Shown here: piece after piece, positions 1-56,800 of the stretch
Layout of the letters: the number at the start of each line of letters is the position of its first letter
Numbering within the stretch: position 1 is the stretch's first letter
Source: Liolophura sinensis
Lineage: Eukaryota; Mollusca; Polyplacophora; Chitonida; Chitonidae
Assembly: GCF_032854445.1 (NCBI RefSeq)
Contig: NC_088307.1
Location: 2,480,001-2,544,000, forward strand
DNA length: 64,000 nt
Direction of reading: 5' to 3'
Made by a program: the position numbers and the translations under genes
The notes under the pieces: model-generated
The model's database searches: none
What the model was told of the DNA's origin: nothing
What the model saw: the letters and a program-made list of their open reading frames with translations, nothing else

Positions 1-394
1 AAATACCCCAAAGTTATTGTTTGTTTTTTTTAGATTGATCTGAACTTTTAAAAAGATAAAATTTAAAATTTCCTGATAATGCTTAAATGAGTGCATCAGT
101 CATTATTCGATTACTATTTCTTCTAGAATTCATGTTATGCATAATGTGCCCTTAAAATGTAATATTTTTTTCCTAAATTCTCACACTGAAGGCTTTTTTG
201 TCATTTTAATTAAAATTCAAAGCATAGATTCTTTGTAAATTTCAACAAGCAATGGGTTGCAAAGTAATGGCACAACCTGTGTAAATGCGCTCTTGTCCAG
301 TTTAGCCTTCCATAGGGTGTGGGTGAGTGCACCACTGAATTCAGGTGCCATGGCAAATCAAGGTCTTGTAAATTGTGCATGTTTCTCCCTCTAG

Positions 395-471
395 TGGTGG
401 AAGACATCAACAAGAGAAGAGAACCCTTGCCATTGCTGGAGTGTGTGTATCTCTTGACACCGACTGAGAAA
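395..471 (+). CDS. STXBP1: STXBP1 exon (first in window)
   Basis: The acceptor is tttctccctctag and the donor AAA|gtaagt. The exon starts with two bases finishing a codon, then encodes [12 protein letters not shown] and ends VYLLTPTEK, matching domain 1 of Munc18-1. The exons encoding the N-terminus are not in the window. Confidence 0.93.
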
Positions 472-3400
472 GTAAGTGACCTTTTCTGTTCCAGCTGAGA
501 TGCATCAAGGTCATAACTATAGTTAAATCTACCCATCTTTGCCTGATGAAGTAAACAAAATTCACAGAGTTTTTAAGAAAAGTCTGTTTTGGATGGTAGG
601 CTACTGAAAGTAATTACTGTAAATACCTTAAAAAGAAAGGTGAATTGAGGTTGGATAATATACTGATAAAAAATGTTTTAGTACCAAAAGTAATATTTTA
701 TGATCTTTATTTGCCTCTGAAATGGCCCTTTTAGAGTGAGATTTGAGGCCAAATACAGTATCTTTCAAAAACCCAATTTTAGATGAGACAGAAAAGTTAC
801 ATGGGGAGTGCTTGTACACAGGATATGTTTACCCTGTCCACACTGTCTTGTGTAATCTGTATTATGTGTCTGGCCCTATTTGTTTTTCAGTCTATTAGAG
901 CACTGATGGCTGATTTTCAGAATCCAAACAACACCCAGTATAAGGGCGCACATGTCCTTCTTCACTGAGGGTAAGTTTCGCATGTTTCTTGTCAGGCTGC
1001 ATGGATTGGATTCCATCTCCAGCTGGGTAAACAGTATTTATATTGGGAAGATTATCAGTTTGTTACATGGTTAAAAATGGGTTGTGTGTGACGTCCTTTC
1101 AGGCTTTACCAGCCTGAAAAGTAAAAGACAGCACCTGACAAATGTTCATGTCCACTGAAAGACTACCATTCAAAGTATCTTAAACCGGCATTAAATATTT
1201 TTTGGAGATTTTTTTCAACCCAGTTTCGTGAAACTTTGTCTTGTCACAGTTTCAATGCGTCTCCATTATCTAGAGCAACGTGACGTCACGATTACTCTAG
1301 TCCCCTAATGTCGAAGGTATTTCCTGTATAACAGTTTAAGCAGTAGCCTATAGCGGATTAAAGCTGTGGACCTGGGTGATAAAGGACCAAGTGTTAAACA
1401 GCTTTCTCGCAAAATGGACATACTGGAATGACGTTTCTTGAACTGTTCATACAGTAGGCCTATTATATCATCTATACAGTTTTCGAGTAGCCTGCAGATA
1501 CATGGCCAGGGTATTCCTGGTTCAGGTTGGTAGCCTCCGGAGGGGTTGTGCTGGTATCGGTAATTCTGACCCCTAATGGATGTTTACAAAATTACAATAA
1601 CATTGTTGTACAGGTGGATTCATGCTCATTTCTGACACAAATGGAAATAAATCTAAGCACCACTGAGGCTTTAGGCATTCAGCTGTCGCTGGATTTTATG
1701 CTTCAGTTTTGTAGTGATGGCCTCTAAGATGAGAGCAGTGCTGACCCAGTTATCATGGGCGTCGGAGGAAGCACCTGGGCTTAGGCACAGTGTTTCAATA
1801 TTTTTACTGTATTTTATAAAAGAAAGCAGAAAAAAAAACATCCCTTGTATGCGAGAAAGACAAAGGGCAAGATTTAAATTCTCCAGTTGTAATAAATTCA
1901 GAGAAAAAATATTATTAATTTATTAATTTGAAGCATTTTCCGATGAGATTCCGTCTTCTCATTCCCATAAACCGGCGCATCCCTGTTGATTTTTTCACTC
2001 ACTGATATATGTTATTTAGCAATTGCATGCTGAGGTCTACTGGAGAGATGAATGTGGATTTGGAACGAGACAGTATGCTACTGTCTGACACACAGTATCA
2101 CATACTGTCGTTGAATATTACACAGCTTGTAAATCAACTGATTTTATGTCTGTGGTGGTCCGTAAATGATACACACCTGTCATGCAACACAGTGTGAAAT
2201 CCTTTGGCTACAGGTAAATAAATCGTTGTAAACGATCTCAAAATGATGTCTTATGGAGTAGTTCTGTGTTATCATATGTCACTTCATGGAGTGAATGGGT
2301 AAAGGCTACGTCACAGCTTATGCCGTTCAACCTGATAGCAACTTGTTTGATTTTAATAAATTTCTCAAGATGGCTGCCTGGAGTCACATCAGTCATTTGT
2401 GCAGTATTGTCATTTTGTTCTATATGTTATTCGGTAAAATTTCATTAAAATGTGGTCAGGTGCTGTCTTGTCCTTTAATTTTCAGTATTGCCCGTTAATG
2501 AAAGTAAAATGTTATGATATGGCTAATTAGATCATAGCAAATTATAGGCGAGTAAGAAACAAAAATACAGCCCAATGATGATAAATCGTGCACCACGCTG
2601 AACTGTTGATGTGGAATGCACGAAACCACCGAATCTTAACACTGAGGGCTTGTTTCAGGTTTTGAAAACATCTTTTGATGACTATAATGACATCATTGTA
2701 GGTTTAGGATTCAACTCCAACCCTGAAAATTTAAGGCTGCAGTGTACATAAATATAATTTTTGAATGAATATTGTATGAGTATTTGGAGACCAAAGCAAA
2801 CTGAGTTTTAAATTTCATGATGAGACTTTCCCTTTTTGGAGTTACACTTTATTAAGTTAAAACTAATTGGTGGAGCTCAAGGTTGTTGAAGTAGGCAAAG
2901 GGGAGCTAACTCTGAATTAAGCATAGGCTGAAGAGCATCTTAATATAGGATCAGCTCTCCTCACTGCCTTCATTGACCTGGTGTCCCAAACATTTGATCT
3001 GACCAGCTTTTTTTCCCAATTACACCATCACACTATAGCAAGATGTTTCTTTTTATGATTTGACATATATGATTAATTTTTCAGTTTGAACACATATTTG
3101 CCTGAAATACGTGTTCAAATAATGGTAAACACAGCTACAAATATAGGAGTTGATTTTCTGTGAGATTTTTATCTTGTGTGATTTCAGCTTGCCCAGATGA
3201 ACTGTTCACAGAGTTGTGCAAGTCCACAGGTGCTAAGTTTATCAAGACCCTGAAAGAGATTAACATAGCATTCCTACCCTATGAGAGACAGGTAGATGGG
3301 GCTTTCTTTTTTCAGCGGGAAGCCCGGAGTATGATTCTCAGGCTGATTCCCGTATATACAGATGACAAAACTCCCAGCAGATTCCTGTAGACTCATAAAA

Positions 3401-6400
3401 AGACAACTGGGCATCAGACTTTGAGATCATTAAAGTTATAGAACCCACAAAATCTGAATACTTTCATGTTGAGAAATCCTGTCCCTTTACACTGCATATC
3501 AGCATAAAAGCACAGTAGTTACTTTGTACACAGATAAGGAAGAAAGAGAGGTTATCTGTCTTGTACGCTAATGCCAAATCGAGAAATCTAGACGAAAGTT
3601 ACAGGTCATTCCGCAATCTGATATCCCTGCTCATAAAATCCCATGTCTTTGAGAATTATCGTGATAGGTGAATATTGCTGATTGATTATTGACGCAGTCA
3701 TCGTTGTATACTCCTTTGTGACCAATGTCTACTGTTTTGCCTCAGGTTTATTCCATGGACTCCCCGGGACACTTTCCAGTTTTACTATAACCCGACTAAG
3801 ACCATAGGGCGAACTCTAACCTGGAGAGGTGTGCTGAGCAGATCGCTACCCTGTGTGCTACATTGGGGGAGTACCCATCTGTCAGATACAGGAAGTATGT
3901 GTAAGCATTCGTTATCTCAGGGCTTATACAAGGCTGGAGATAGGAGTTCAATCCCAAGTGTGGCGATAAGCCATAAATAATTCATTCATTCATGCAATCC
4001 CAGATGTGACCATTTCCAGATGTGGTACATGTTATTTCTCACCTTACTGTAAATATTCAACTTTCAACTTCTAAAGCATTTTTTCTGGGAAATGTATGCA
4101 TACGCTTATTTTGAAAGTGACGTTAACATGATTTGTTTCTGTCACTAAACATGCAAGCATCCCAAAACTTTGGAAATTATTTTTCTACTCCGCATACTCC
4201 TCTCAGGAAGTTTAAAAATATTGGTTCCAGTGGTGGTTAAAAAGGTTGAAGAATTGTGAAAATCATTCAAGGCTTTTATGTTGGCTGTGTTGGGACATGG
4301 TTCCCAACTACTTTGTGCATTTTTGCCACTGTTTTGTCATTTTACATACAATATTTAGATAATGCAGAGTGTGTAAAGTATATCTCATCTTGGGACTGAT
4401 TTCATATGAATTTGAAAAGATACCTAGTAGACATGAGCCATACAGAGTTTAGATATCAAGCCAAATGATGATATGTCGTACACCACACCAAACTCTTGAT
4501 ATGGAATCCACAGAACTGCTGAATGTTAACACTGAGGGCTCCAGTGTCAACAGTCCATGCAGAAATGGTAAATGGTCATCATGAATGTAATATACACCAG
4601 TGTATCGACCAAACACATTATTTTATCATCATTATTTTTTAAAAAATAGGATTACCTTAGAAGCAGTTTGATTTTCTCTGAAATTTCTGTGGATGATGTC
4701 TGTCGATACCTTATTATCCCATGTATTTATATGTATTGTGAATTTCCCAGTGACTTTGACAAGAACGCAGAGTTTGCCCAGATGGTTCAGCAGAAGTTGG
4801 ATGCCTACAGAGCTGATGATCACACCATGGGAGATGTAAGTCATGTTTTCTTGTTTCTTATTTCTGGCTAGACCCTGAGGCTTGTTATTTTCAGTTGAAT
4901 TAGCCCATTAAGGTGAACTTTCATCCTCCTTGAGGGGCGGGATGCAAGTAACAAGGCAACTGCAATAGTATCTGTTGTAACATAAAAGTCCACTCTGGTA
5001 TTGTAATGACGGTAGCCAGAAGATGGAAATTTAAAGCTTAAATTGTGTTGTTGTGTAGAGCCGTCTGAAGGACAAATGTCTGCTGATCATCCCAAGTAGG
5101 CTAACCACCTGCTGCTGTTGTTGTTGTTGTGTAGGGCCCTCAGAAGGACAAATGTCTGCTGATCATCCCAAGTAGGCTAACCACCTGCTGCTGCTGTTGT
5201 TGTTGTGTAGGGCCCTCAGAAGGACAAATGTCTGCTGATCATCCCAAGTAGGCTAACCACCTGCTGCTGCTGTTGTTGTTGTTTTGTAGGGCCCTCAGAA
5301 GGACAAATGTCTGCTGATCATCCCAAGTAGGCTAACCACCTGCTGCTGTTGTTGTGTAGGCTAGGGCCTTCAGAAGGACAAATGTCTGCTGATCATCCCA
5401 AGTAGGCTAACCACCTGCTGTTGTTGTTGTTGTTGTGTAGGGCCCTCAGAAGGACAAATGTCTGCTGATCATCCCAAGTAGGCTAACCACCTGCTGCTGC
5501 TGTTGTTGTTGTGTAGGGCCCTCAGAAGGACAAATGTCTGCTGATCATCCCAAGTAGGCTAACCACCTGCTGCTGTTGTTGTGTAGGCTAGGGCCTTCAG
5601 AAGGACAAATGTCTGCTGATCATCCCAAGTAGGCTAACCACCTGCTGTTGTTGTTGTTGTTGTTGTTGTGTAGGGCCCTCAGAAGGACAAATGTCTGCTG
5701 ATCATCCCAAGTAGGCTAACCACCTGCTACTGTTGTTGTGTAGGCTAGGGCCTTCAGAAGGACAAATGTCTGCTGATCATCCCAAGTAGGCTAACCACCT
5801 GCTACTGTTGTTGTGTAGGCTAGGGCCTTCAGAAGGACAAATGTCTGCTGATCATCCCAAGTAGGTTAACCACCTGCTGCTGCTGCTGTTGTTGTGTAGG
5901 GTCCTCAGAAGGACAAATGTGTGTTGATCATCCCAAGTAGGCTAACCACCTGCTGTTGTTGTTGTTGTTGTGTAGGGCCCTCAGAAGGACAAATGTCTGC
6001 TGATCACCCCAAGTAGGCCAACCACCTGCTTTTGTTGTTGTGTAGGGCCTTCAGAAGGACAAATGTCTGCTGATCATCCGAACTAGGCTAACCACCTGTT
6101 GTTGTTGTTGTTGTGTAGGGCCCTCAGAAGGACAGATCCCAGCTGATTATCCTGGATCGAGGCTTTGACCCCATTTCTCCCCTTCTACACGAGCTCACGC
6201 TTCAGGCCATGGCCTACGATCTCCTCCCCATTGAGAATGACGTCTACAAGTGAGTATATCATCTACTTGTACTGGACTATTGACAGGGTCTGGTTAGAGT
6301 GCTGGCTCGATACCACTTCTGGAAAATCATCTACTCCTAGAATTTTCTCCACATTAAAAAAAAAACAAAAAAAAAACACTCATGAGAAAGTATAGGTTAG

Positions 6401-9400
6401 CTTTAGCATATTATTAAACACCTAGGAAGTTCTAGAATCTGATGTTAAGCCATACCGAGTATAATTTTTCAATTCTTGTTGGCATAATAAGGATTTTAAA
6501 CTAATTACAAACAGTAATGTTAGTTAAGTTTCTGTGAGAATCTGTAAAGCTTGATTACCTGTTCAGAGTATATAAATACATAAGTGTTTTGATTTACAAT
6601 TGTGATTGTCTTCAAATGTGTGTTTGTTTTTGTTAGGTATGAGAATGCTTCCGGAAACGATGTGACAGAGAAAGAAGTGCTGTTAGATGAGAATGATGAA
6701 TTATGGACAGAGCTGCGTCATCAACACATTGCCGTTGTCTCACAGTAAGTCAAGAAGGATAATAAACAATCAACTTTACATGCACTAGAACTTTGTCTAA
6801 TAGGAATGGGTACATTTTCCAATGTAGTAGACTTTCCTGACTTTGGACTCCTGCTTATTTCCCTCCTTCAACACATTTGATAACTCTGGGCTATCTCCGT
6901 GTAATATTCTTTGAGGATCCCCCACTCCCCCTTTGAATGTACCAATCATTCAACTATTTTGTTCATCAAGTGAGTATATAGCCACCTCCTACAGCTTTGA
7001 TCCAAGTCTCCTTTCTGAAGTGCAAAATATTATTCAGCACACCTGTATACTAATGCTTTTGTCGTTTTGTCATCATCAGACAGGTGACAAAGAAGTTGAA
7101 GCAGTTTGCAGAGGAGAAGCGGATGAGCGGAGGCACAGGGGAGAAGGCAAACATCCGTGACTTATCGCAGATGCTGAAGAAAATGCCCCAGTATCAGAAG
7201 GAGCTAAGCAAGTACTCCACCCACTTACACCTGGCAGAGGACTGTATGAAGCAGTACCAGAATCACGTAGACAAGCTCTGCAAGGTGGAACAGGTGAGCC
7301 AGTACAGCAGTGTGCTTTACAGTGAAGGAAATAAAATGGAATAAAAAGTGCAGTTTTACAGTGGGATAAATATCATAATCTATTTATTTATTTGTTTGCT
7401 GTTTAATGCCGTACTCAACAATATTTCACTTATACAACAGCGGCCAGCATTATGGTGGGAGGAAACCGGCAGAGCCCGGGGTAAATCCATGACCATCTGC
7501 AGGTTGCTGCCAGACCTGGCGTATGGCCAGAGAGAAAGCCAGCTTGAGCTGGACTTGAACTCACAGCGAGCATAATCTATTACTTATGTTACTATATTTC
7601 TGTGGTGCTGAAACATTTTTCTGGGGTGACATCATCTTTTCTTCCAAACAATGCTTTAAACACTTTTTTTAGCACTGTAGAAATCTTAGAATGAGGGGAA
7701 ATAATCAAATTTTTAGGTTATTTACTGTACTTGTGTTTTTGACTTGATTTTGGAGAGAAAACTCTTCCACGATATTGGCCTTGTTGAAGGTATTTGAAAG
7801 TTTACACTATATTTGACTTGAAGCCGTTAGTGTTAAGTAGCCCCTAGCTAATTGCAGTTCATATCTCTACATGGGAGTCATGTAGTCATGGTAGTTAAGT
7901 GATTACGTAGTTCAGTGTGCTTCATGAAAACAGCTCATGATATTAGCCTGGTTACACATCACAGGATTCACCCCCATTGTGGTTATCTCCCCTTGTAGGA
8001 CCTGGCCATGGGTACTGATGTGAATGGAGAGAAGATTCGAGACCTGATGAGGAATATTGTGCCCATTCTGCTGGACCAGAACATAACAGCCTACGACAAG
8101 ATCAGGATTATTCTGCTCTACATCATACACAATGGGGGTAAGGCACTAACCATGGGGAAACTTTACATCATACACAATGGGGGTAAGGCACTAACCATGG
8201 GGAAACTTTACATGATACACAATGGGGGTAAGGCACTTACCATGGGGAAACTTTACATGATATACAATGGGGGTAAGGCACTTACCATGGGGAAACTTTA
8301 CATCATACACAATGGGGGTAAGGCACTAACGATGGGGAAACTTTACATCATACACAATGAGGGTACGGCACTTACCATGGGGAAACTTTACATCATACAC
8401 AATGGGGGTACGGCACTTACCATGGGGAAACTTTACATCATACACAATGGGGGTAAGGCACTAACGATGGGGAAACTTTACATCATACACAATGGGAATA
8501 CGGCACTAACAATGGGGAAACTCTACATCATACACAATGGGTGTAAGGCACTAACCATGGGGAAACTTTACATCATACATTATGGGGGTAAGGCACTTAC
8601 CATGGGGAAACTTTACATCATACACAATGAGGGTACGGCACTTACCATGGGGAAACTTTACATCATACACAATGGGGGTAAGGCAGTAACCATGGGGAAA
8701 CTTTACATCATACACAATGGGAATACGGCACTAACCATGGGGAAACTCTACATCATACACAATGGGGGTAAGGCACTAACCATGGGGAAACTTTACATCA
8801 TACATTATGGGGGTAAGGCACTTACCATGGGGAAACTTTACATCATACACAATGGGGGTAAGGCAGTAACCATGGGGAAACTTTACATCATACACAATGA
8901 GGGTACGGCACTTACCATGGGGAAACTTTACATCATACACAATGGGAGTAAGGCACTAACCACGGGGAAACTTTACATCATGCACAATGGGTGTAAGGCA
9001 CTAACCATGGGGAAACTTTACATCATACGCAATGGGGGTAAGGCACTTACCATGGGGAAACTTTACATCATACACAATGAGGGTACGGCACTAACCATGG
9101 GGAAACTTTATATCATACACAATGGGGGTAAGGCACTAACCATGGGGAAACTTTACATCATACATTATGGGGGTAAGGCACTAACCATGGGGAAATTTTA
9201 CATCATACACAATGGGGGTAAGGCACTAACCATGGGGAAACTTTACATCATACACAATGGGGGTAAGGCAGTAACCATGGGGAAACTTTACATGATACAC
9301 AATGGGGGTAAAGCACTAACCATGGGGAAACTTTATATCATACATTATGGGGGTAAGGCACTAACCACGGGGAAACTTTACATCATACACAATGGGGGTA

Positions 9401-12400
9401 AGGCACTAACCATGGGGAAACTTTACATCATACACAATGGGGTTAAGGCACTAACCATGGGGAAACTTTACATCATACACAATGGGGGTAAGGCACTAAC
9501 CATGGGGAAACTTTACATCATACACAATGGGGCTAAGGCACTAACGATGGGGAAACTTTACATCATACACAATGGGGGTAAGGCACTAACCATGGGGAAA
9601 CTTTACATCATACACAATGGGGTTAAGGCACTAACCATGGGGAAACTTTACATCATACACAATGGGTGTAAGGCAGTAACCATGGGGAAACTTTACATCA
9701 TACACAATGGGTGTAAGACACCAACCATGGGGAAACTTTACATCATACACAATGGGGGTAAGGCAGTAACCATGGGGAAATTTTACATTATACACAATAG
9801 GCCTAAGGCACTAACCATGGGGAAATTTTACATGATACACAATGGGGGTAAGGCACTAACCATGGGGAAACTTTACATCATGCACAATGGGGGTAAGGCA
9901 CTAACCACGGGGAAACTTTACATCATACACAATGGGGGTAAGGCAGTAACCATGGGGAAACTTTACATCATACACAATGGGGGTAAGGCACTAACCATGG
10001 GGAAACTTTACATCATACACAATGGGTGTAAGGCACTACCCATGGGGAAACTCTTCTTCATACACATTTGGAGTAAGGCACAAGGGCAGACTTTACGTTA
10101 GACACAAGGGGTGTCAATCTTTAGAAAGGGGAAACTGGAAGTTATTTAGAAAAAATCTTTGACACATGATGTATTGTTTTATTAACATGTGTGAAAGCAG
10201 ACTGTATCTGTCAGACACTTCATCAACAATCTAATAAATAACTATTGCTGTGATTGGTGGTGTTCTGCAGGAATCTCGGAGGAGAACTTGGCTAAGCTTG
10301 TTCAACACGCACAGATCCCACCACAGGAGAGGTTCATCATCAACAACATGCAGAACCTAGGGGTACCCATTATACAGGATGTAAGTATCACTCCAACAGT
10401 CCACCTTTTCATATTCATTCTTGTATGTTCTCCAGTCAAATCAGCTGCTTTCCTGCATAGAGCTAACCAGGTGTGGTTGAATCGCACCAGCCACATGGAC
10501 AAATATGAGTCCTTTTCTCTTGTCCCATTGGTTCATGATACATGCTTGTCAGAATTGTTTAAATCACGGGTTCAGGAAGAAAGAAAACTTTCTAAATGAC
10601 GTGGGAGAGAGAGGGTGGGACGGTGAGGGAATGGTTCTCTCTCGATTTCATCTAAAGTATTGTTTCGGAGGGTGCTGATTTTCACTTGACCTTGGGTCTG
10701 TCTACGTGTCATAGAAAAGTTGAAGCCGGCTCATGATCAGGTGGTAGAATATAAAACCCTACCTGCCTTCATACCAGGCTCGTCACAGGTGGGTTTGAGA
10801 CTTGAAATTCCTGGTATATTCTCAGTATACCCGATCAGTGAATCCAATATGACACATCTGAGAGAACTTTGAGATAAAACCGTGTTACACTTCTTTCAGA
10901 TGTAGTTTTTTTTACAATAGGCCTTTGGCATCAGGATCACGAAATGGTCTTAGACTTAAATCAAAATTTCATATCACATTGAAATTGTTATTTTTATCTA
11001 AGAAGGTCAAAGTATTGCTTGATGGCATAAATTTTGGTCAAGTGATTGTTTCAGTTATAATGACTGAAAGGAAGCTTAATGACTGAAATTTTGACTTAAG
11101 TCTAAGATCGTTTTGTGATCCTGGGTCCAGCTTGCAGAGTGAAACACTTGTGTGGAATTGTATGGTTTTGTGACTGGGAATGCTGTGTCTCACCAACAGG
11201 GATCCTAGACTAGAGGAGAAATGGTATAAGACTGCACATTTTGCCTGAGACACGCTGTCATGCCTGTTATGGTCTTTATAGCATTGCAATTTGACTAGAG
11301 TCCTATGTAATGAATGCTCCCTTTACCGACTTGTACCGGTAGCTAACTAGATCTGAAGTGACCCCAAGTCTCATTTAGTCTGGTGATCTCTCTGTAGGTG
11401 GAGAGGTTGAACCTATATATAGAATTGTCACTTCAGCATACAATTGAGGTAAAGTGCATGTGAGCAAAGGTTGGCCTCTCCTCGACGGATTACATTGCAG
11501 ACTGGAGTCAAGATCTTGCTGCTTCGGCTGCATCTCTTAAAATGTTGGTCACAGATTTTCTCTGGGACTGTTTTCCTACACCCATAAACTTGACTGCCTG
11601 AGTGTCCGTGGATTCAGTTTAAAGGGGCAGTCTCGTAGGTGTGAAGACCTAGCAGCAGTCCGTGGATAGTCTTGGGTTCCCTTAGGTTCTGTCCAGTTTC
11701 CTCCCACCTTAATGCAGGCCATCGTTGTACAAGTGAAAAATTCTTGAGTGCGGCGTAAAACAAGTCCATAAAGGGGCAGTCAAATTAAAACTATAACCCT
11801 TAACTGGGAGGATAAGAGTTCATCTCGTGGATTACAATACCTTGACAGCAAAGGGAACCTTGTCACATTTGGTGACACTTCCAGCCAATCTGTAACAAAG
11901 CATGCTGAATGGGAACTGTTGCCTAAAGTAATTTGGGCCACAGCCGTGCAGTCACACATTCCTTCCATTTCAGGGCCTAATCTGGCCTCAGAAGGGCAGG
12001 GGGTGGAACCACCGGTGAAGGGCACCCCATTGTTGAATATTTTGATTCTCATACATTTTTAAGGATCTCGGGTCTACGGTTGACCTCCACCCCACGTGCA
12101 CACCACAACACGTACCTAACCCTAAAATTGAGTTTAAGGATGGCGTGTATTAACTGATATGTGGAGAACTCTGCCATCCCGGATGACATGTGCATCTGAT
12201 CATCACACTGTATCATATATACCCCCAGGACATCATTAAAAAGTTATTTGTTGCGGGTAACAAGCCCTTTTTTTTGAAGTCGGGTCGGTGGGTCTGCATT
12301 TTTTTTTGAATGGGAAATAATTCCCCGCCTGCATAATCTGAATGCTAATTGAATTATTGCGGGTCCAATTTTCATCACCTGCTTCGGGGCATACATTTCC

Positions 12401-35300: not shown

Positions 35301-37563
35301 CATCACAAGGAATTACTCGGCCGTACGTGGGAAGGGTTTAGGCAACTTGCGGATGGTCGTGGTTTTCCACCGGGCTCTATCCGGTTTCCTCCCACCATAT
35401 TGCTGGACGCATGAAATATTCTTGAGAACGGCCTGAAATATCAATCAAATAAATAAATCATAGAATCACTTTGGTTTAGTTGTAATAGCGCAGCATTCGT
35501 CTACGGTGGTGAGTGATCATTTATTTATCAAATCAATCTGAAACTCATGTCGTACAAGATGAGAAATTAACGTGGTGGAGATTAGTGAATGAAAAGTTTA
35601 CTTTCGTATGTATATGTATATAATTGGGTTTCAGTTAGGTCAGTCGAACAGATCAAGTAAAGACAAGTATGCTGCGAAAACAGAATTATTATTATATCAA
35701 CACAGAAAAACTTTTATAAAAAGTTATTTTTTCATTCAAGTCGCCTTTTAAGTCATCTAATTAAACGACTCCATTCCCATCTCTTCCATTTCCAGGAAGA
35801 GAAAAGGCAACTATGGACAACACAGTGACCCTGTGCATGCGCGGCATCTGTCATTGTTGTGGTCACGGCAACGGTGGACAACACAGTAACAATCCCGAAC
35901 CAGTCACAGCGTCTGTCCTTATTGTCGCCACGGAAACTATGGACAACGTGGTGGCAATCCCGAACCAATCACTGCCTTACCTCTGTTGACAGGAAGTGCT
36001 GACACATGCGCGGCACCTGTCTATCTTGCCCTGAAGGATGCCGTTGCACGTTTTGTTGACTGGAAGAAATGCTGTGACGGAATTGTTGTAATCCTTCTGT
36101 AACTTTGTCACCTCTGATGCCAGAGCCGTTGCACCGTACTGGGTGAGTACTGTTAATAAAAGACAAGGAACGGAAGAAGGAACGGCTCAGGGTATCCATA
36201 CAGAGAAGAAGAAGAGTGAATGCTGTTTACAAGTTCACGTTTTCTGCATGCATGCATCTGTGATTTATTATATGATGGGTTATAAGCCGTATTTAATAGA
36301 CATGTGTAAGTCCACACTTGTTTTCCACTTGAAAAACTTTGTTGAAGCCTACCAGCACCGTAGGTATGGTCGTGGGTTTCTCACCGGGCTCTGTCCGGTT
36401 TCCTCTCACCTTAACGCTGGCCGCCGTCTTACACGTGGCATTCATGAGTACAGCATGGAACACCAATCATACACATTACTACTGGGGTCCGAAACAGTAA
36501 CTAGATCTTTTAAAAACCTTTACTCTTGGAACCCGTCTGATGACACTTTTTACTTGAAAAAAATCAGAGTGCAAAAGTGAAAGATCCGATCTTGTTTTTA
36601 AAAAATACGGAAGCACAAATTCAACTAGACCAACATTCTACAAGCTCGATGCAGGTGCTCTTTCAAATAATAGATACCAATAAATCTGTATAGCTTATAA
36701 GGAGCGGATACTACATCTGGCTTTAGTGAAATTGCATCATATGTAATATGAACCAGGACCCATATGATCTTATAAACTGCGTATTATACTGAGCTTTTAA
36801 ATTTTGCCCTAAGTCAAAAATTGCTTTATGAAATCGGCATATGATATATGGTATGAGCTGTCACACAGTACAGTGGAACGGTTGTTTAATATTCAGTGAT
36901 TCTTCCAGATCGGAAGGATTTCGATATGACCAAAAGTATCATTTTCTTGTAATAACTTGATATGTTTTCTTTGATAATTTTCTATGGATGATTCTAACTG
37001 GTTTATTTACATATAAAGTCATTCAGCTCATCTGTCACTAACTAGTATATCCAAAGGTCGAGGGGCCAGCACCACCTAATGGCCGCGAGGATACCAGGTC
37101 TATAGCCAACGGTACGGCTAGATTTCAAACCTTTTCCAGAGACGTTGTAGATTGCTTGACCAGTAAGAGTAAAGTGTTTCTGATCATACCAACAGGTTCC
37201 ATAGAGAACCGATTATGAAAACGAAGAACCACGCGGTTCTCTAAAGAACCATGAAGAACCAAGATTTCTGAGAGTTTGGACTGGCATTCCGGTTTCCTCC
37301 ACCAGTTAAATAAAATTAGTCACCGACATAATTAAGGAAGTATTGAGTAAGGGGCATTAAACCCCAATTAAGTATACTTGGAACCAGTATGTATACATAA
37401 TTAATCAAACCATTTTCAACGAAACTAATCAAGCACATGGCACCGTGATTGTACCTTGTAATATGGCGTCTGGTATTGGCTGAAGCTGTTGAGATGAAGG
37501 TAATGGATACAGCAAAGTCACCAGGACAAAAGCCACAGCTGGTAATAACCGACCTGACATCAT
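32179..37563 (-). CDS. Clusterin-like secreted protein, gene A (six exons)
   Basis: Exons on the minus strand: 37563-37455, 36149-35981, 35101-34677, 34350-34210, 33020-32920, 32361-32179. They total 1128 nt, or 375 residues plus TGA, with consistent phases. Order: signal peptide (MMSGRLLPAVAFVLVTLLYP); helical segment; cysteine cluster 1 C-x10-C-x2-C-x4-C-x7-C (CNGILQGKIDRC, CVSTSC) preceded by an NKT sequon; a degenerate Gly-rich 11-residue repeat region (VDIGKEIGHVGESL); basic FGRRS; cluster 2 C-x10-C-x6-C-x2-C-x7-C (CADC); and a C-terminal domain with VEVTVEILGKTL. The cluster 1 spacing equals that of human clusterin and cluster 2 differs only in its first gap. Clusterin is an extracellular chaperone and apolipoprotein; that role here is inferred. 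Gene A is the most diverged of the three. Confidence 0.82.
32920..33020 (-). CDS. Gene A exon 5
   Basis: 101 nt, as in the paralogues. Acceptor cgtgtcttag, donor AGT|gtgagt. It encodes DCPGYTEAVETVMSSNNARA then WLAKATEFTYHVIS, including the last cysteine of cluster 2. Confidence 0.85.
34210..34350 (-). CDS. Gene A exon 4 (cysteine cluster 2)
   Basis: 141 nt, acceptor acgattttcag, donor ACAG|gtaaac. It encodes RSVESEVSIVMRASSEPGC then DAIQHDTSNACGYYINSCAD and CKLNPKT. It is 21 nt longer than in B and C. Confidence 0.85.
34677..35101 (-). CDS. Gene A exon 3 (fifth cysteine and Gly-rich repeats)
   Basis: 425 nt, acceptor cctgtttcag, donor GGTC|gtgagt. It opens RAKKVCQPAEW, completing C-x7-C, then runs through NVGGQIGDFF, VDVGKTVGNGAVDIGKEIGH and VGEDIGNGIVKLGNGAVDIG to NNIGRIFG. 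Repeats are less regular than in B and C. Confidence 0.85.
35318..35460 (+). mobile_element. SINE family 1, partial
   Basis: cggccgtacgtgggaaggg, ggatggtcgtggttttcc, cggtttcctcccacc and an attcttgagaacgg tail with caaataaataaa. Gene A intron 2. Confidence 0.8.
35981..36149 (-). CDS. Gene A exon 2 (first four cysteines of cluster 1)
   Basis: 169 nt, the same length as in genes B and C. Acceptor ttattaacag, donor CAGAG|gtaagg. It encodes LASEVTKLQKDYNNSVTAF then VNKTCNGILQGKIDRCRACV and STSCQQ. Confidence 0.85.
36352..36470 (+). mobile_element. SINE family 1, partial
   Basis: tatggtcgtgggtttctcac, ccggtttcctctcacc and gctggccgccgtc followed by a diverged tail. It lies in gene A intron 1. Confidence 0.7.
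37455..37563 (-). CDS. Gene A exon 1 (signal peptide)
   Basis: Start ATG at 37563 (a second ATG follows directly). 109 nt, ending CAAG|gtacaa in phase 1. The hydrophobic core AVAFVLVTLLYP precedes PSSQQ, a plausible cleavage region. Confidence 0.85.
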
Positions 37564-42000: not shown

Positions 42001-45000
42001 ACTTAAATAAATAAATAAATAAATAAATATTGGTTTCTTACGACAGAAATTTTACCTTTACAAAGACTTTCCGTTTATAATAAAATATCTTATACCGTAC
42101 TAATTATACGTGATAGAACTGGACTGGGGCGTTTTAATAGATCTATAAAAACATTTGAAAAACAATCTTTATATTCTTACGTCCAAAAATGTGATGAAAT
42201 TCGTGAGACAGGTGATGGATGCCTTTCCCGATTTCATCCCCGACATGACTGAGACCATTGCCGATCTCTTTCCCTAAGTGCTCGACGCCGTGACCTATTT
42301 CTTCTCCAACGTGCACGAGGCCGTGACCTATTTCTTTTCCGACGTGTTCGGCGCCGTGACCAATTTCCTCTCCGACGTGACCGATGCCTTTTCCGACGTC
42401 AACAACGCCTTTCACAACCGTCTTGCCGACGTCACCAACACCCTTTCCAATCGTTTTGCCGATGTCTCCGACGATATTTTTCACTGGCCCTTTGATGAAG
42501 TCTTTAATTTCCTCCCCGACATTGACGACCGCTTTGCCCATTTCATTAACCAAAAAAGTGCCGGTGAGAACCTTGGTGAGGTCCTTCGTCAAAAACTTAA
42601 CCCCCTTGGATAATATGGCTTCCCATTCCGACGGCTTGCAGACTTTTTCTCCTCTGAATATAAGGCATTTGTTAATTTAATTCTGAAAACACCAAATTTG
42701 GATTATTTTCGGTAAACATTTTCGAACATGTTTTACTTGTATTTATTTATTTGATAGGTGTTTGACTCCGTACTCAATGATGTTTCACTTATACGACACC
42801 GGCCAGTATGATGGTGGGAGGAAACAGAGCAGAGCCGGGGGGAAACCCACGACCATTCTCAGGTTGCTGAAAGACCTTCCCACGTACAGCCAGATGAGAA
42901 GCCAGCAGAAGGTCGACTTGAGCTCAAGCGACCGCATTGTTGAGAGACTCCCGGGTCATTGCGCCGCGTTGTCGGCCACGAAGTTCCCAGTTTTAGCCTA
43001 ACTGTAATCTTTGAACAGATATATGGTTGTGCTGTCGTTTGTTACCAGAACAAAGACCTGTACCTCCAAACATGTTGTAATTAAAAATTGATGACCATTA
43101 TTACCACCATTATTTAATATGTACTTTTATTGTATCTGAATTTTTTCCATGGATTGATTGCATCAAAGAGGAAATCAGTAGACCTTCATCACCTTTATCG
43201 ATCTGAAGCCTTCATTTTGGGGTTGGCGAGTTTTCTATGAAGGTCGGACACTTACATTTGCGTAAATGACTGGCTAGTCATCCAAAATTTGTTGATGAAT
43301 ACATGCGTTCCTTACACAATCTATCCAAAATCAATCAATCAATCAATCAATCACAGGAAGAACATTTGTCCGTGTAGAAGGAGTTTGGACACAGGCGTAA
43401 CATCTGTCCGTCTTACCTCTGTTTACAGGACGTTCCAACACAGGAGTAACATCTGTTTATCTTACCTCTGGTTACTGGACGCTCCGACATAGAAGTAACA
43501 TCTGTCCATCTTACCTCTGGTTACAGGCCTCGGGTGACGTCATAATTATTCAAAACCCAGTGGCATGCTGGATATTAGGCGGAGTTCAGTATGTTTTGAC
43601 AGAAGGCGACACCAGTTACCTAAACTACTAACGATTTTACTGTAAACCCTGTTCCTGACACTGCCATATTTGAAATTGTTTACACGTTTTAATATAATAT
43701 AGCCTTAATAAAGGAATTTTATTTCATCCCTTGTAGTATATGATGTCACGGAAGTATGGTTTTAAAGCTGGATGTAAGGAAAATTTATTATACGAAACAA
43801 TGTAGTCTGTTTACTGAGGGTGTATTGTTGGCTGTGTTACTGCGTGGAGTTTTTGTACCACGCCCGCTCCCACAGGAGTAACATCTGTTCGTCTTACCTC
43901 TGCCTACAGGACGTTTCGACACAGGAGTAACATTTGTCCGTCTTACCTCTGCCTACACGGAGTTTGGACACAGGAGTAACATCTATCCTTCTTACCTCTG
44001 CCTACACGGAGTTTGGACACAGGAGTAACATCTATCCTTCTTACCTCTGCCTACACGGAGTTTGGACACAGGAGTAACATCTGTTCGTCTTACCTCTGCC
44101 TACAGGACGGTTCGACACAGGAGTAACATCTGTTCGTCTTACCTCTGCCTACAGGACGTTTCGACACAGGAGTAACATTTGTCCGTCTTGCCTCTGCCTA
44201 CACGGAGTTTGGACACAGGAGTAACATCTATCCTTCTTACCTCTGCCTACACGGAGTTTGGACACAGGAGTAACATCTATCCTTCTTACCTCTGCCTACA
44301 CGGAGTTTGGACACAGGAGTAACATCTATCCTTCTTACCTCTGCCTACACGGAGTTTGGACACAGGAGTAACATCTATCCTTCTTACCTCTGCCTACACG
44401 GAGTTTGGACACAGGAGTAACATCTATCCTTCTTACCTCTGCCTACACGGAGTTTGGACACAGGAGTAACATCTATCCGTCTTACCTCTGCCTACACGGA
44501 GTTTGGACACAGGAGTAACATCTATCCGTCTTACCTCTGCCTACAGGACGGTTCGACACAGGAGTAACATTTGTCCGTCTTACCTCTGCCTACACGGACT
44601 TTGGACACAGGAGTAACATCTGTTCGTCTTACCTCTGCCTACAGGACGTTTCGACACAGGAGTAACATTTGTCCGTCTTGCCCTGGAGGAGACTGTTACA
44701 AGTTGTGTTGACTGTTTTAAACGCCTCCACGGCTTCGGAGTAGGCATTTTGTACCTTTTTGACCTCGGCGGTCAGCCGATCGGAGCCGTAGTCAGCTAGT
44801 TCTGTGCCCAGGAAAGGGAATACATTATGAGAATGGAACAGTCAGTAAGTATTAACATACATTTTTTTGTTTATTGGTGTTTTACGCCGTCCTCAGGAAC
44901 ATTTTCACTTACACAACAGCGGCGAGCACTGTGGTGGTAGAAAATTGGGAAGAGCCCATGGGGAACCGACGACCTGGTTGCTGCAGACCTTCCCACGTAC

Positions 45001-46598
45001 GGTCAGAGAGGAAGCCAGCATTATATTAACATACAAAATTTTCCTCAAGACTTATGCAGCAAAGATAATGCTATTAATATTTGTTTTGACAGTTTTAATT
45101 TTTTCATTTGCCGTATACGTTATTGGTGATGTTGATAAATCGCAGACGACTAGAAGTTGACCAGTAAGGTGGCGTGGTGGAATCCAAGCCTAATGCGACT
45201 GCGTCTCCAAACTATGCAGCCTGTCATATACCTTTTATTTCATTTATTTTTCTTTCATTTGATTTACGTTTATGTTTTCTCTTATGACTGCGGTCGGGTT
45301 ATTGAAATGAGAACAGCTGCGTGACAACAGTAAATCACCTCCGTTTGACAGGTATACCACACAAATCTCCTCACCTAGCTGTGTGACAACAGTAAAGTAC
45401 CTCCCTTTGACAGGTATACCACACAAATCTCCTCACCTAGCTGCGTGACAACAGTAAAGTACCTCCCTTTGACAGGTATACCACACAAATCTCCTCACAT
45501 AGTTGCGTGACAACTCCTTTGACAGGTATACCACACAAATCTCCTCACGTAGCTGCGTGACAGCAGTAAAGTACCTCCCTTTGACAGGTATACCACATAA
45601 ATTTCCTCACGTGCTGCGTGACAACGGTAAAGTACCTCCCTTTGACAGGTATATCACACAAATCTCCTCACATAGCTGCGTGACAACAATAAAGTACCTC
45701 CCTTTGACAGGTATACCACATAAATCTCCTCACATAGCTGCGTGACAACGGTAAAGTACCTCCCTTTGACAGGTATACCACATAAATCTCCTCACGTAGC
45801 TGCGTGACAACAACAAAGTACCTCCCTTTGACAGGTATACCACATAAATCTCCTCACATACCTGCGTGACAACGGTAAAGTACCTCCCTTTGACAGGTAT
45901 ACCACATAAACCACCTTACATAGCTACATGACAGCAGTTAAGTACCTCCCTTTGAGAGGAATGCCACACAAATCTGCTCACATAGCTGCGTGACAAAAGT
46001 AAAGTACCTCAATCTGACAGGTATACCACACAAATCTGCTCACATAGCTGCGTGACAAAAGTAAAGTACCTCAATCTGACAGGTATACCATACAAATCTC
46101 CTCACATAGCTGCGTGACAACAGTAAAGTACCTCAATCTGACAGGTATACCACACAAATCTCCTCACATAGCTGCGTGACAACAGTAAAGTACCTCAATC
46201 TGACAGGTATACCACACAAATCTCCTCACATAGCTGCGTGACAACAGTAAAGTACCTCAATCTGACAGGTATACCACACAAATCTCCTCACATAGCGGCG
46301 TGACAACAGTAAAGTACCTCAATCTGACAGGTATACCACACAAATCTCCTCATATAAAGCCGCAGCCCAACCAGTGAAAGCAGTAGAGTAATCTACAAAT
46401 TAGAATGAATTGGGGATGACATTACGCTTGATGTCAGGAGTAACATCTGTCCAGCTTACCTCTGTTTGTGTTTCAGGATAGATACGTACGTTGTAAGAGT
46501 GCTGCCGGGACCGGCATCATTTGCTGAGAGAACGAAGGACCCGGATGTAGCGAACAGGTAACAAGGAACAAGGTGATACTGGCCGAAAAGCTTCTCAT
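38832..46598 (-). CDS. Clusterin-like secreted protein, gene B (six exons, intact)
   Basis: Exons on the minus strand: 46598-46490, 44801-44633, 42653-42181, 41174-41055, 39789-39689, 39014-38832. They total 1155 nt, or 384 residues plus TAA, with no frame break. Signal peptide MRSFSASITLFLVTCSLHPG; cluster 1 CNSLLQGKTDKC, CVETSC and, after x7, C; an 11-residue repeat of type VGKEIGHGVEH (about 7 units, His-rich); RRRRGFGRRA, a strong furin-type basic site placed between the two cysteine clusters as in clusterin; cluster 2 CDAIKDGDGC, CADC; then the conserved C-terminal domain. Its introns hold the exon-2 junction array, a 63-bp array, a 24-bp array and several SINEs. Clusterin relationship is inferred from cysteine spacing, order and secretion; function is unproven. 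Confidence 0.87.
39689..39789 (-). CDS. Gene B exon 5
   Basis: 101 nt, acceptor tatattacag, donor AGT|gtaagc. It encodes DCPGFKAAYDNYKASYESQL then WLAKVTEWTYKIIS. Confidence 0.88.
39850..40010 (+). repeat. About 80-bp repeat, two copies plus fragments, in gene B intron 4
   Basis: The segment gtgataactggcacatggtc then acacgtaaccggtgaaatat recurs at about 39867 and 39948. One related copy lies at 51548-51590 in the same intron of gene C. Confidence 0.8.
41055..41174 (-). CDS. Gene B exon 4 (basic site and cysteine cluster 2)
   Basis: 120 nt. The acceptor region reads atgcag|gcag|aagg, a tandem acceptor; the first is used in phase and yields RRRRGFGRRASEPGC then DAIKDGDGCNYYFNTCADC. Donor CAAG|gtgaga. 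Confidence 0.88.
41385..41555 (+). repeat. 24-bp minisatellite in gene B intron 3, about 7 copies
   Basis: The unit catagcgtataggacaaaac c(t/c)at is nearly perfect. It lies between exon 4 and exon 3 of gene B. Confidence 0.92.
41655..41857 (+). mobile_element. tRNA-derived SINE, family 1, plus orientation
   Basis: It carries the family body (cggccgtacgtgggagggtc, gcagcaacctgcg, ggtttcctcccat, gatgctggccgcc) and the tail ttcttgagtactgcataaaa then caatcaaataaat. It abuts an opposite copy at 41855-42028. Confidence 0.85.
41855..42028 (-). mobile_element. SINE family 1, minus orientation, tail-to-tail with the previous copy
   Basis: It begins tttatttatttgattggtgt then tttacgccgtaattaagaat and continues to ggttgctgccagacctt. 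With 41655-41857 it makes an inverted repeat of about 150 bp per arm in gene B intron 3. Confidence 0.85.
42181..42653 (-). CDS. Gene B exon 3 (11-residue repeats)
   Basis: 473 nt, acceptor cttatattcag, donor GGAC|gtaaga. It opens GEKVCKPSEWEAILSKGVKF, then irregular VGDIGKTIGKGVGDVG, then regular VGEEIGHGVEHLGKEIGNG, ending HHLSHEFHHIFG. Confidence 0.88.
42738..42975 (-). mobile_element. SINE family 1, minus orientation
   Basis: tatttatttatttgataggt tail, then ggtgggaggaaacagagcag, aaaccttccc-like body, and gagagactcccgggtcattg near the head. Gene B intron 2. Confidence 0.8.
43355..43530 (-). repeat. Three outlying copies of the exon-2 junction unit
   Basis: The plus strand shows gtaacatctgtccgtcttac and cttacctctg motifs about 60 bp apart. 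They are separated from the main array by about 340 bp of unrelated sequence. Confidence 0.75.
43870..44632 (-). repeat. 49-bp array repeating the exon-2 end and 5' splice site of gene B (about 16 copies)
   Basis: On the minus strand each unit reads ATGTTACTCCTGTGTC, then a variable middle, then GTAGGCAGAG|gtaag. This is the last ~40 nt of gene B exon 2 and its donor. Period is 49 bp (for example 44007 and 44056 on the plus strand). Because 49 is not a multiple of three, use of a distal donor would shift frame. The array begins right at the real donor, downstream in transcription. Confidence 0.93.
44633..44801 (-). CDS. Gene B exon 2, seed of the 49-bp array
   Basis: 169 nt, acceptor tgggcacag, donor GGCAGAG|gtaag. 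It encodes LADYGSDRLTAEVKKVQNAY then VNTTCNSLLQGKTDKCYSCV and ETSCRQ. Its last ~40 nt plus donor are repeated immediately downstream on the minus strand. Confidence 0.88.
44868..45035 (-). mobile_element. SINE family 1, minus orientation, partial
   Basis: tttattggtgttttacgccg, tcaggaacattttcacttac and ccttcccacgtacggtcaga. Gene B intron 1. Confidence 0.75.
45300..46355 (+). repeat. About 63-bp minisatellite in gene B intron 1, about 17 copies
   Basis: The unit is cacacaaatctcctcacata then gctgcgtgacaacagtaaag then tacctccctttgacaggtat ac. Two subtypes are spatially sorted: 'ctccctttgaca' in the left part and 'ctcaatctgaca' in the right part, suggesting separate expansion phases. Confidence 0.92.
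46432..46475 (-). repeat. Stray copy of the exon-2 junction unit beside exon 1
   Basis: The plus strand reads caggagtaacatctgtccag then cttacctctgtttg, the reverse complement of an exon-2 end plus donor. It lies in gene B intron 1 about 15 bp from the exon-1 donor, far from exon 2. Confidence 0.7.
46490..46598 (-). CDS. Gene B exon 1 (signal peptide)
   Basis: ATG at 46598, 109 nt, donor CAAC|gtacgt. It encodes MRSFSASITLFLVTCSLHPG then PSFSQQMMPVPAALLQ. A TATA-like box lies about 50 bp upstream. Confidence 0.88.
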
Positions 46599-53800: not shown

Positions 53801-56800
53801 ACACGTAGTCACAAGGAAAATATGGGGGAATGTCTGCACTCATGCACGTAGCCACAAGGAAAATATGAGGGAATGTCTGTACTCATACACGTCGTCACAA
53901 GGAAAATATGGGGGAATGTCTGTACTCATACACGTAGTCATAAGGAAAATGTGGGGGAATGTCTGTACTCATACACATAGTCACAAGGAAAATATGACGG
54001 AATGAAGCACAATAACAACATACACAACAAGACAACCTTCCTGTGCTTCACGTGTCACTCTTACCTTGATCTGGGTTCAGTGTACAGTCTGCGCATGTGT
54101 CGTAGTAATAGTTACATCCGCTACCGTCTTTAATTGCGTCACATCCGGGTTCTGATGCTCGACGACCAAAGCCACGCCTTCTGCCTGCATGCATGTTAAT
54201 CACTTGATTTTAACCCTGGGTCGAAAATAGTGCGTCATTTTCTCCAGGAACCAGGATAAAATTCAGTATCAAACTCGAAGGAGCGCGCGGAAACTGATAA
54301 TACTTCCATCGCGAGAGGTCATTTTTTTAAATTTATGTTTAATGTTAAAATAGATAACTAACAAAATCTATTTGTCTGAAACACAGTCCTGTTGTTTCGT
54401 TTTTTTCAGCAGAAATTTTACACTTAAAAAAACTTTTGCAGTACAAGAAAATATCTTATTAATACTGTACGAATTATGCGTGCTAGAATTGCACGTTTTA
54501 ACGGGAGGGGTGTTTTGACAGAACTAAAAAATCTGAAAAACATGTTCCCACACTCACGTCCAAAAATGTGATGAAATTCGATGGATGCCTTTCCCGATTT
54601 CATCCCCGACATGACTGAGACCATGGCCGATCTCTTTCCCTACATGCTCAACCCCGTGACCTATTTCCTCTCCAACATGCACAACCCCGTGACCTATTTC
54701 CTCTCCGACGTGTACGACGCCGTGACCAATTTCTTTTCCGACGTGTTCGACACCGTGACCTATCTCCTTTCCGACATGTTCGAGGCCGTGACCTATTTCT
54801 TTTCCGACATGTTCGAGGCCGTGACCTATTTCCTCTCCGACATGTTCGAGGCCGTGACTTATTTCCTTTCCAACATGTTCGACGCCGTGACCTATTTCCT
54901 TTCCCACGTGCTCGATGCCTTTCTCGACGCCTTTCACAACGGTTTTGCCGACGTTTTCAATTCCCTTCCCGACATTGACGACCGCTTTGCCCATTTCATT
55001 AACAAAAAAAGTGCCCGTTAGAATACTAAAGAGGTTCTTCGTCAAAAACTTCTCCCCCTTGGATAAGATGGCTTCCCATTCCGACGGCTTGCAGGCTTTT
55101 TCTCCTCTGAAAATAAAGCATTGATGAATTTAATTCTGAAAACACCAAATTTGAATAATTTTCGATAAGCGTGTTTGAACATCAAAGGAGATTTAATTGT
55201 AATCTTTGAACAGATATATGATTGAACTGTCTTTTATTTACCAGAACAAAAATCGGTTCTTCCCAACATGCTGTGCTTGAAAATTGAGCTAGTAACTACC
55301 ATTACATACTAGCGATGCTGTTGCCTGCGACTGTTTTATTTCGCGGGGGCCTCCGTGGTTCAGTCGGTTAGCGCGCTAGCGCAGCGTAATGACCCAGGAG
55401 CCTCTCACCAATGCGGTCGCTGTGAGTTCAAGTCCAGCTCATGCTGGCTTCCTCTCCGGCCGTACGTGGGAAGGTCTGCCGACAACCTGCGGATGGTCGT
55501 GGGTTTCCCCGGGCTCTGCCCGGTTTCCACCCACCATAATGCTGGCCGCCGTCGTATAAGTGAAATATTCTTGAGTACGGCGCAAAACACCAATGAAATA
55601 AATAAATAAATATTTTGCGTATTGCACAGTTTTCCTGACAGAAGCCGTGTGCAAAGGAGTTAGACATGAGTATATTCGGGATTTGTACACCTCTTATCTC
55701 TCCGGGTTTTTAATAAGTGACAACCGTGAATAGAGAGAGACAGCTTAAATTATTGCCGTCTACCACACAAGACAGATTATAGATTATTCCTTATCCTTTT
55801 ATACAGAACAACCTGCACCCTTCCTACCTCTTAGGTTCTAGAAATTTTCATATTACTTCGAACTAATTATGTGCTAAGAAATAGCATGCACAAACGTTCA
55901 CATTTCTGTCTAATTTCTGAATACATATAAATTAACACGTAGAACAGTCCTGTGTCCATCAAGGCCACCCCACTTGATGTATTGGGTAAATATTACCGTG
56001 CTAGGAACATGTTATTGATATGAAAAGTAATTAACTGATTTAACACTGACGTATGTCAGAAAATCCCAAAATGTTCGTCTAAGGGTACAAAATCTGTACC
56101 TGTTATCTTACCTCTGTTTACAGGACGTTCCGACACAGGAGTAACATCTGTCTGTCTTGGCCTGAAGGAGGCTGTTACAGGTTTGGTTGACAGGTTCAAA
56201 TGCTGCCTGAGCATCGCTGAAGGTTTTCTGCACCTTTTGGACCTCCGCTGAGATCCAGTTCGTTCCGAAGTCAGCCAGCTCTATGCCCGGGCGGGGGGAT
56301 AGAATGAAGTCATGAAATATTACATACTACAAGATCTGCCTGAAGATTTTATAAAATATGCAGCCTGTGTGTTGATTTTATTTACTCTGCTAATGCTAAT
56401 GGGAAAGTTGGGGACCAGAAGTCAGTGTTTTTTCTTTTTGTTCTTACTCACAAATTTCATCTTTTAGTGTACTTGGCTTATGGTTCTATATAAGGGAATG
56501 TGTGATCAGGTCCAACCTAACGTAAAACCATTCGAGTTTTTTACTACTATGTCGGAATAGTAGTTCCAACCCTTCAACGGAATATGGTAATGTAAACCAA
56601 AGTCACTTAAACCAAGCCGACAACGACGAATGAATGAATAAATACATGGAGTTTAACAAGTTTTCAGTCACGTGACGACGGGAAGTCATTAGGTGTTTAT
56701 ACATATTCCGTGTCTTCTTGTGGCAGTGCGAGTCTATGTCGCCAAAGTAGTGCTGACACTGAGGTACCATGCGGAAGGCTCCAGGCTCACCCCACCCAGT

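Follow-up and report, generated by a model that had tools for sequence, protein, structure and literature searches.

A 45-bp tandem array of potential 5' splice sites at an exon-intron junction of a Munc18/Sec1 gene in the chiton Liolophura sinensis

Introduction

Tandem repeats that straddle exon edges have been described in human genes. The excerpted text of PMC2630376 records, in the human CBS gene, a 31-bp variable number tandem repeat (VNTR), c.1444_1467+7(16_21), that persists in people at 16 to 21 copies, together with a 68-bp duplication of the intron 7/exon 8 junction. Human segmental duplications harbor internal tandem repeats at exon-intron boundaries, with a mean of about 30 bp by 4 copies, according to the excerpted text of PMC2812944. 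Minisatellites are also reported in introns of earthworm metallothionein genes (PMC12783039) and near alternative exons in C. elegans (PMC4039745), and what is excerpted from these two reports has no direct bearing on the array described here. That array, with a 45-bp unit, begins at the 3' edge of exon E9 of a neuronal Munc18/Sec1 gene of Liolophura sinensis, in a 64,000-nucleotide (nt) stretch of contig NC_088307.1 (assembly GCF_032854445.1, positions 2,480,001 to 2,544,000, forward strand); we call this whole stretch the window and number all positions within it.

Each unit joins the end of the exon to the start of the following intron, and most copies therefore bring with them a candidate 5' splice site (donor). 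From the sequence, the array is likely to be a neutral minisatellite of the intron that was seeded on the exon edge and is mostly spliced out whole with that intron. Among the literature matches listed, none describes a donor array in Munc18 or splice-site arrays in molluscs, which is not proof of absence. The features discussed are collected in Table 1.

Table 1. Splice-site arrays and associated exons in the window (a slash marks a splice boundary)
Feature	Position	Strand	Basis or remark
76-bp array across the 3' splice site of Munc18 exon E6	5046..6152	+	Tandem Repeats Finder (TRF), 14.6 copies; 14 copies upstream of the real acceptor, which ends at 6118
Munc18 exon E6	6119..6249	+	Start resembles the 76-bp unit (tblastn to array copies, 64% over 14 aa, E 0.10)
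Munc18/Sec1 exon E9	7999..8137	+	139 nt; ttgtag/..ATGGGG/gtaaggca; 3' edge seeds the 45-bp array
45-bp array, 43 in-register full copies, each a potential 5' splice site	8116..10050	+	TRF and register from 8116
First (standard) donor GT	8138..8139	+	Squid s-Sec1 without insert; U1 duplex -9.7 kcal/mol
Decayed 44th copy, 3' edge of the array	10051..10095	+	Degenerate; array fades into unique intron
Munc18 exon E10	10271..10380	+	Acceptor ctgcag/GAATC, common to all donors
Clusterin-like exon A, paralogues 1 and 3	36147-35980 and 56278-56111	-	tblastn and donor count
49-bp array across the 5' splice site of a clusterin-like exon	43871..44679	-	16 sites, that of the exon and 15 copies downstream of it
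Clusterin-like exon A, paralogue 2	44632..44799	-	Ends ...CYSCVETSCRQR/gtaagacg

Results

The 45-bp array and its host gene

TRF reports the array at 8119-10081 with a period of 45, 43.6 copies, 92% matches, 0% indels, and a score of 3345. Set in register, it consists of 43 full copies and a decayed 44th, in agreement with a preliminary description of this DNA that had put the number of in-frame copies at about 43. Copy 1, CTCTACATCATACACAATGGGG/GTAAGGCACTAACCATGGGGAAA, is contiguous with exon E9 and contains the last 22 nt of that exon and the first 23 nt of the intron, as that description had also proposed, and its statement that most copies carry a consensus donor is borne out: 37 of the 43 copies retain the GT, and 25 have the complete GGGGTAAGG (38/44 and 25/44 if the decayed copy is counted). 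The decayed copy was excluded from all substitution, codon, and rotation counts given below. The 43 copies represent 29 sequence types, with 28 distinct substitutions from the consensus (78 cells), and there is no indication of higher-order repeats, the mean difference between copies being flat across lags 1 to 15 (3.03 to 3.42). Matches of the unit core to viral contigs, matches to Rfam, and tRNAs detected by ARAGORN (bacterial setting) were all zero.

The joined exon translations of the host gene match squid s-Sec1 (1epu) with an E value of 4.8e-261, the alignment covering query residues 4-87 and 87-504, and syntaxin-binding protein 1 is the next match; Pfam Sec1 is found in exons E6-E8 (E 4.1e-48), and E9-E10 alone fall under the cut-off for that family (27.6 bits versus 30.7). 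Exons E5 through E10 join in frame, with AG/GT borders throughout. The squid segment LYIIHKGG-ISEENL aligns without a gap across the 8137/10271 junction, with a one-residue difference (K for N) at the end of E9, and syntaxin-binding protein 1 likewise has no insert there; the family membership and the junction claimed earlier for this gene are thus both upheld. Because squid s-Sec1 lacks an insert at this point, the standard Munc18 product presumably uses the first donor and has no insert either, the 8137/10271 junction fitting the known protein.

Reading frame and coding constraint

The reading frame passes through all 43 copies without a stop and stays open to 10101. Splicing of donor 2 or donor 3 to 10271 is in frame and would insert 15 or 30 residues, and since the 45-bp register is constant the frame is kept for the later donors too. 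The frame neutrality claimed at the outset accordingly stands, although the size of the insert needs correcting: when the real donor is counted as the first, donor n adds (n-1) x 15 residues rather than n x 15.

Read in this frame, the 28 distinct variants of the array comprise 8 synonymous, 20 nonsynonymous, and 0 stop changes, where the possible changes stand at 31:100:4. The 20 nonsynonymous changes compare with 21.4 expected (P 0.34), and the synonymous excess expected of a selected coding tandem repeat is not seen in the array frame. The array peptide shows no codon-level constraint and varies as if untranslated. We also considered the stop-free frame as a sign of coding and rejected it: the absence of stops is uninformative because only 4 of the 135 single changes create one, so that finding none among 28 has a probability of 0.43. 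With codon constraint lacking and the absence of stops expected by chance, the sequence leans toward use of the first donor and a neutral array.

These counts bear on the proposal that several donors are used and that neurons make a ladder of Munc18 isoforms with 0, 15, 30, and so on, extra residues, varying with the array length of the individual. All of the donors are in phase, 25 of the 43 share the same 9-nt site, and the predicted U1 duplex energy of those 25 equals that of the real donor. By our own count on the s-Sec1 alignment the insert would fall between squid residues 415 and 416, which we take to be a turn between two helices. We nonetheless regard such a ladder as quite unlikely, given the unconstrained codons of the array, the fact that donor bases -1 and +1 are its most variable positions rather than its most conserved, the exon length of as much as about 2 kb that late donors would need, and the absence of the insert from both squid s-Sec1 and syntaxin-binding protein 1.

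Donor strength

In silico, the U1 duplex amounts to -9.7 kcal/mol for the first donor and for 24 other full-strength copies, within the range of ten other donors of the Munc18 gene (-5.4 to -11.6 kcal/mol). In a comparison of seven array units, the 45-bp unit forms a stronger U1 duplex than does the best GT in any of the six other array units of the gene (-1.5 to -7.3). Such crowding could in principle make the array a platform for U1 small nuclear ribonucleoprotein (snRNP), which would raise exon definition, delay splicing, or suppress premature polyadenylation. The 25 strong U1 sites within 1.9 kb and the stronger pairing of this unit than of the other six are what this model would predict, and the excerpted text of PMC8724738 describes a downstream donor that can behave as an exonic enhancer by recruiting SRSF1. 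The contrast in U1 pairing is, however, trivial if the unit began as a copy of a real donor, and we consider a platform very unlikely.

Observations that weigh against a neutral, spliced-out array

Several observations do not sit easily with a neutral minisatellite that is removed from the first donor onward. Copies 2-5, the nearest competitors of that donor, are themselves full-strength donors. Predicted local structure gives the first donor no advantage, its unpaired probability being 0.005 against a mean of 0.016 for the others, and a masking of the later donors by structure, which we had considered, was rejected on this ground. The start of the array does fold better than shuffled sequences (z -3.25), which we interpret as base pairing between GUAAGG and the CUUUAC of neighboring units.

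The pair of columns at -1/+1 (8137/8138, and every 45 bp to 10027/10028) is the most variable of the unit, with all six of the possible substitutions present; it is changed in 12 of 42 copies, a number reached by none of the 44 other rotations (copy 1, the exon's own, being left out of the rotation test). At the other Gs of the unit only 4 of 27 possible changes occur (Fisher P 0.0002). The excess has a P value of 4e-5 for a pair picked after looking and of 0.002 to 0.003 over adjacent pairs, in one of seven arrays tested; these were 7 of the window's arrays, from which copies more than 30% off consensus had been dropped (3/13 in the 18494 array and 1/9 in the 22616 array). The second, 49-bp, donor array has no excess of this type. 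Plain neutrality does not predict such variation, and we treat the excess as suggestive.

One possibility is that surplus donors are being disarmed, that is, that mild harm comes from leaky splicing at later donors and that mutations weakening -1/+1 have been favored and spread through the array. The -1/+1 excess over the rotations and over the other Gs is as this would have it, and it may have arisen in this way. Against this, the pair was selected post hoc, copies 2-5 are untouched, and no such pattern is seen in the second donor array. Furthermore, there is no excess at +1/+2, changed in 6 of 42 copies and equaled by 8 of 44 rotations, or over the whole 9-nt donor, in which 18 of 42 copies have some change and which 15 of 44 rotations equal; because so many rotations match it, the latter figure indicates no general purge of donors. 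Disarming therefore seems unlikely to us. The preliminary description had taken the loss of donors in some copies as a sign of drift, which is right only in part: the 9-nt site taken as a whole shows no excess, but -1/+1 is the most variable pair. The array donors look neither preserved nor cleanly purged.

Frameshifts were noted in two Munc18 exons, E2 and E4 (window 891-970 and 3746-3894): a single-base shift in E2 and, in E4, a shift followed further on by one that compensates for it, with a stop between them. They are probably assembly indels, and they call for caution over the exact copy number of the array; they also leave room for a faulty assembly or, with lower probability, a gene in decay. 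It is nevertheless very improbable that the array is an assembly artefact or lies inside a decaying gene copy, since an array whose 43 copies are of 29 sequence types and free of indels is not simple stutter, E5 to E10 are in frame with AG/GT borders, and the joined exons align to squid s-Sec1.

Other splice-site arrays in the window

A second splice-site array of the Munc18 gene lies across the 3' splice site of exon E6. Its 76-bp unit has a TG-rich tract, a TAG, and then a stretch like the start of the exon; the TAG is kept at all 15 sites, and a branch-like CTAAC is found no more than 45 nt upstream in 12 of the 15.

A third splice-site array, with a 49-bp unit, belongs to a neighboring clusterin-like gene on the minus strand and lies across the 5' splice site of its exon A. 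Neither this array nor the acceptor array figures in the preliminary description. Fifteen of its 16 sites have GT and one has GC, and three diverged copies then follow at 43421-43519; an array of this unit was also seen to span window 43389-43527 on the same strand. Since this unit breaks the frame, an in-frame unit is not a condition for such arrays. Exon A is present in three tandem paralogues, and by tblastn paralogue 2 is 53.6% and paralogue 3 is 50% identical to paralogue 1 over 56 aa. No second such donor follows exon A of paralogue 1 or 3 within 1.2 kb, so the 49-bp array arose in one of the three paralogues. Paralogue 1 is an imperfect control for a clean single donor, given what follows it at window 35820-35980 (-): the donor, then a 65-bp repeat of 1.9 copies and 17 nt with 94% identity to the exon, perhaps the trace of a separate junction duplication.

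The assignment to clusterin is weak (Pfam E 0.037, under the cut-off). The three weakly clusterin-like genes lie in tandem at window 32182-57319 (-), with five exon types, three of each, and repeats of the GxxDIGKEIGHVGE type; 33-bp coding arrays of this family occur at 42278-42466 and 54634-54919. Upstream of exon A of paralogue 2 there is a lone fragment like the 49-bp unit at window 46432-46470 (-) (CAGAGGTAAGCTGGACAGATGTTACTCCTG). At window 45315-46356 (-) there is, in addition, a 62-bp array of 17 copies whose consensus contains an acceptor-like CACGCAG and a donor-like GGGAGGTACTT, and no exon could be tied to this array.

Tandem arrays make up 20% of the window. Under random seeding 0.77-0.92 arrays would be expected across an exon edge, compared with the 3 observed (P for three or more, 0.04-0.07); the estimate is based on hand counts of 17 arrays with a period of at least 20 and a copy number of at least about three, of which two lie within coding exons, and of about 29 exons with 58 edges. 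Three arrays across 58 edges are near random seeding.

Discussion

The neutral minisatellite that we favor was most likely born in a tandem duplication straddling the exon-intron junction of the Munc18/Sec1 gene and would then have expanded, through replication slippage or unequal exchange and with homogenization, until it had about 44 copies. The spliceosome would mostly pair the upstream acceptor with the first donor at 8138, defining the normal 139-nt exon, so that the array leaves with the intron; we infer this use of the first donor from the conservation of the protein and the length of the exon. A later donor, if used now and then, would yield an in-frame insert and not nonsense, and selection against the array would be weak because the 45-bp unit is free of stops and the later donors are in frame. 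With an acceptor array in the same gene and a donor array in a neighboring one, the genome appears to tolerate minisatellites that span splice sites, and no special function need be invoked. A more ambitious proposal is that minisatellites are made in this genome on splice junctions of both kinds, donor and acceptor, and that the in-frame donor array of Munc18 is a tunable dial of insert length in a core synaptic protein, with an array length that varies among animals; we find it highly improbable.

The array amounts to a natural test of how the spliceosome chooses among dozens of near-identical, in-phase donors, and it bears as well on the survival of exon edges in a genome rich in minisatellites. 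With three splice-site arrays in 64 kb, in frame and frame breaking, at donors and at an acceptor, and with single-donor paralogues beside them, first-donor choice and leakage are measurable by ordinary RNA-seq.

Among described systems, intron gain by tandem duplication is similar in that duplication yields competing splice sites, and a length that is a multiple of three permits both retention and splicing. There, however, the copy supplies both the donor and the acceptor of a new intron, whereas the 45-bp unit has no good acceptor: read by eye, without acceptor scoring, its only AG is in TAAG/G, with no pyrimidine tract. The repeats in human segmental duplications, as excerpted in PMC2812944, resemble the Munc18 array in being exon-edge minisatellites that alter which bases are exon or intron, and differ from it in occurring in recent paralogues, in having RNA support, and in that new introns were proposed for them.

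The closest likeness is to the CBS VNTR, taken here as PMC2630376 is excerpted. Its notation reads as a unit of 24 nt of exon end and 7 nt of intron start, and its copies carry the donor; the Munc18 unit likewise spans an exon end and an intron start (22 + 23 nt), with a predicted donor in most copies. Both arrays have tens of copies in which there are substitutions and the unit length is constant, and both genes have a second junction repeat, the 68-bp duplication in CBS and the acceptor array in Munc18. The CBS unit, at 31 bp, is not divisible by three, in contrast to the 45 bp of Munc18; copies number 16-21 against 43; and on the acceptor side a single duplication in CBS compares with 15 sites in Munc18. 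Variation in copy number among people has been shown for CBS, whereas the Munc18 array is known from one assembly. Because the CBS unit spans an exon end and an intron start in 16-21 copies, we place the Munc18 array with it: by analogy, it is the same kind of element as the junction-spanning VNTR of CBS, larger and in frame.

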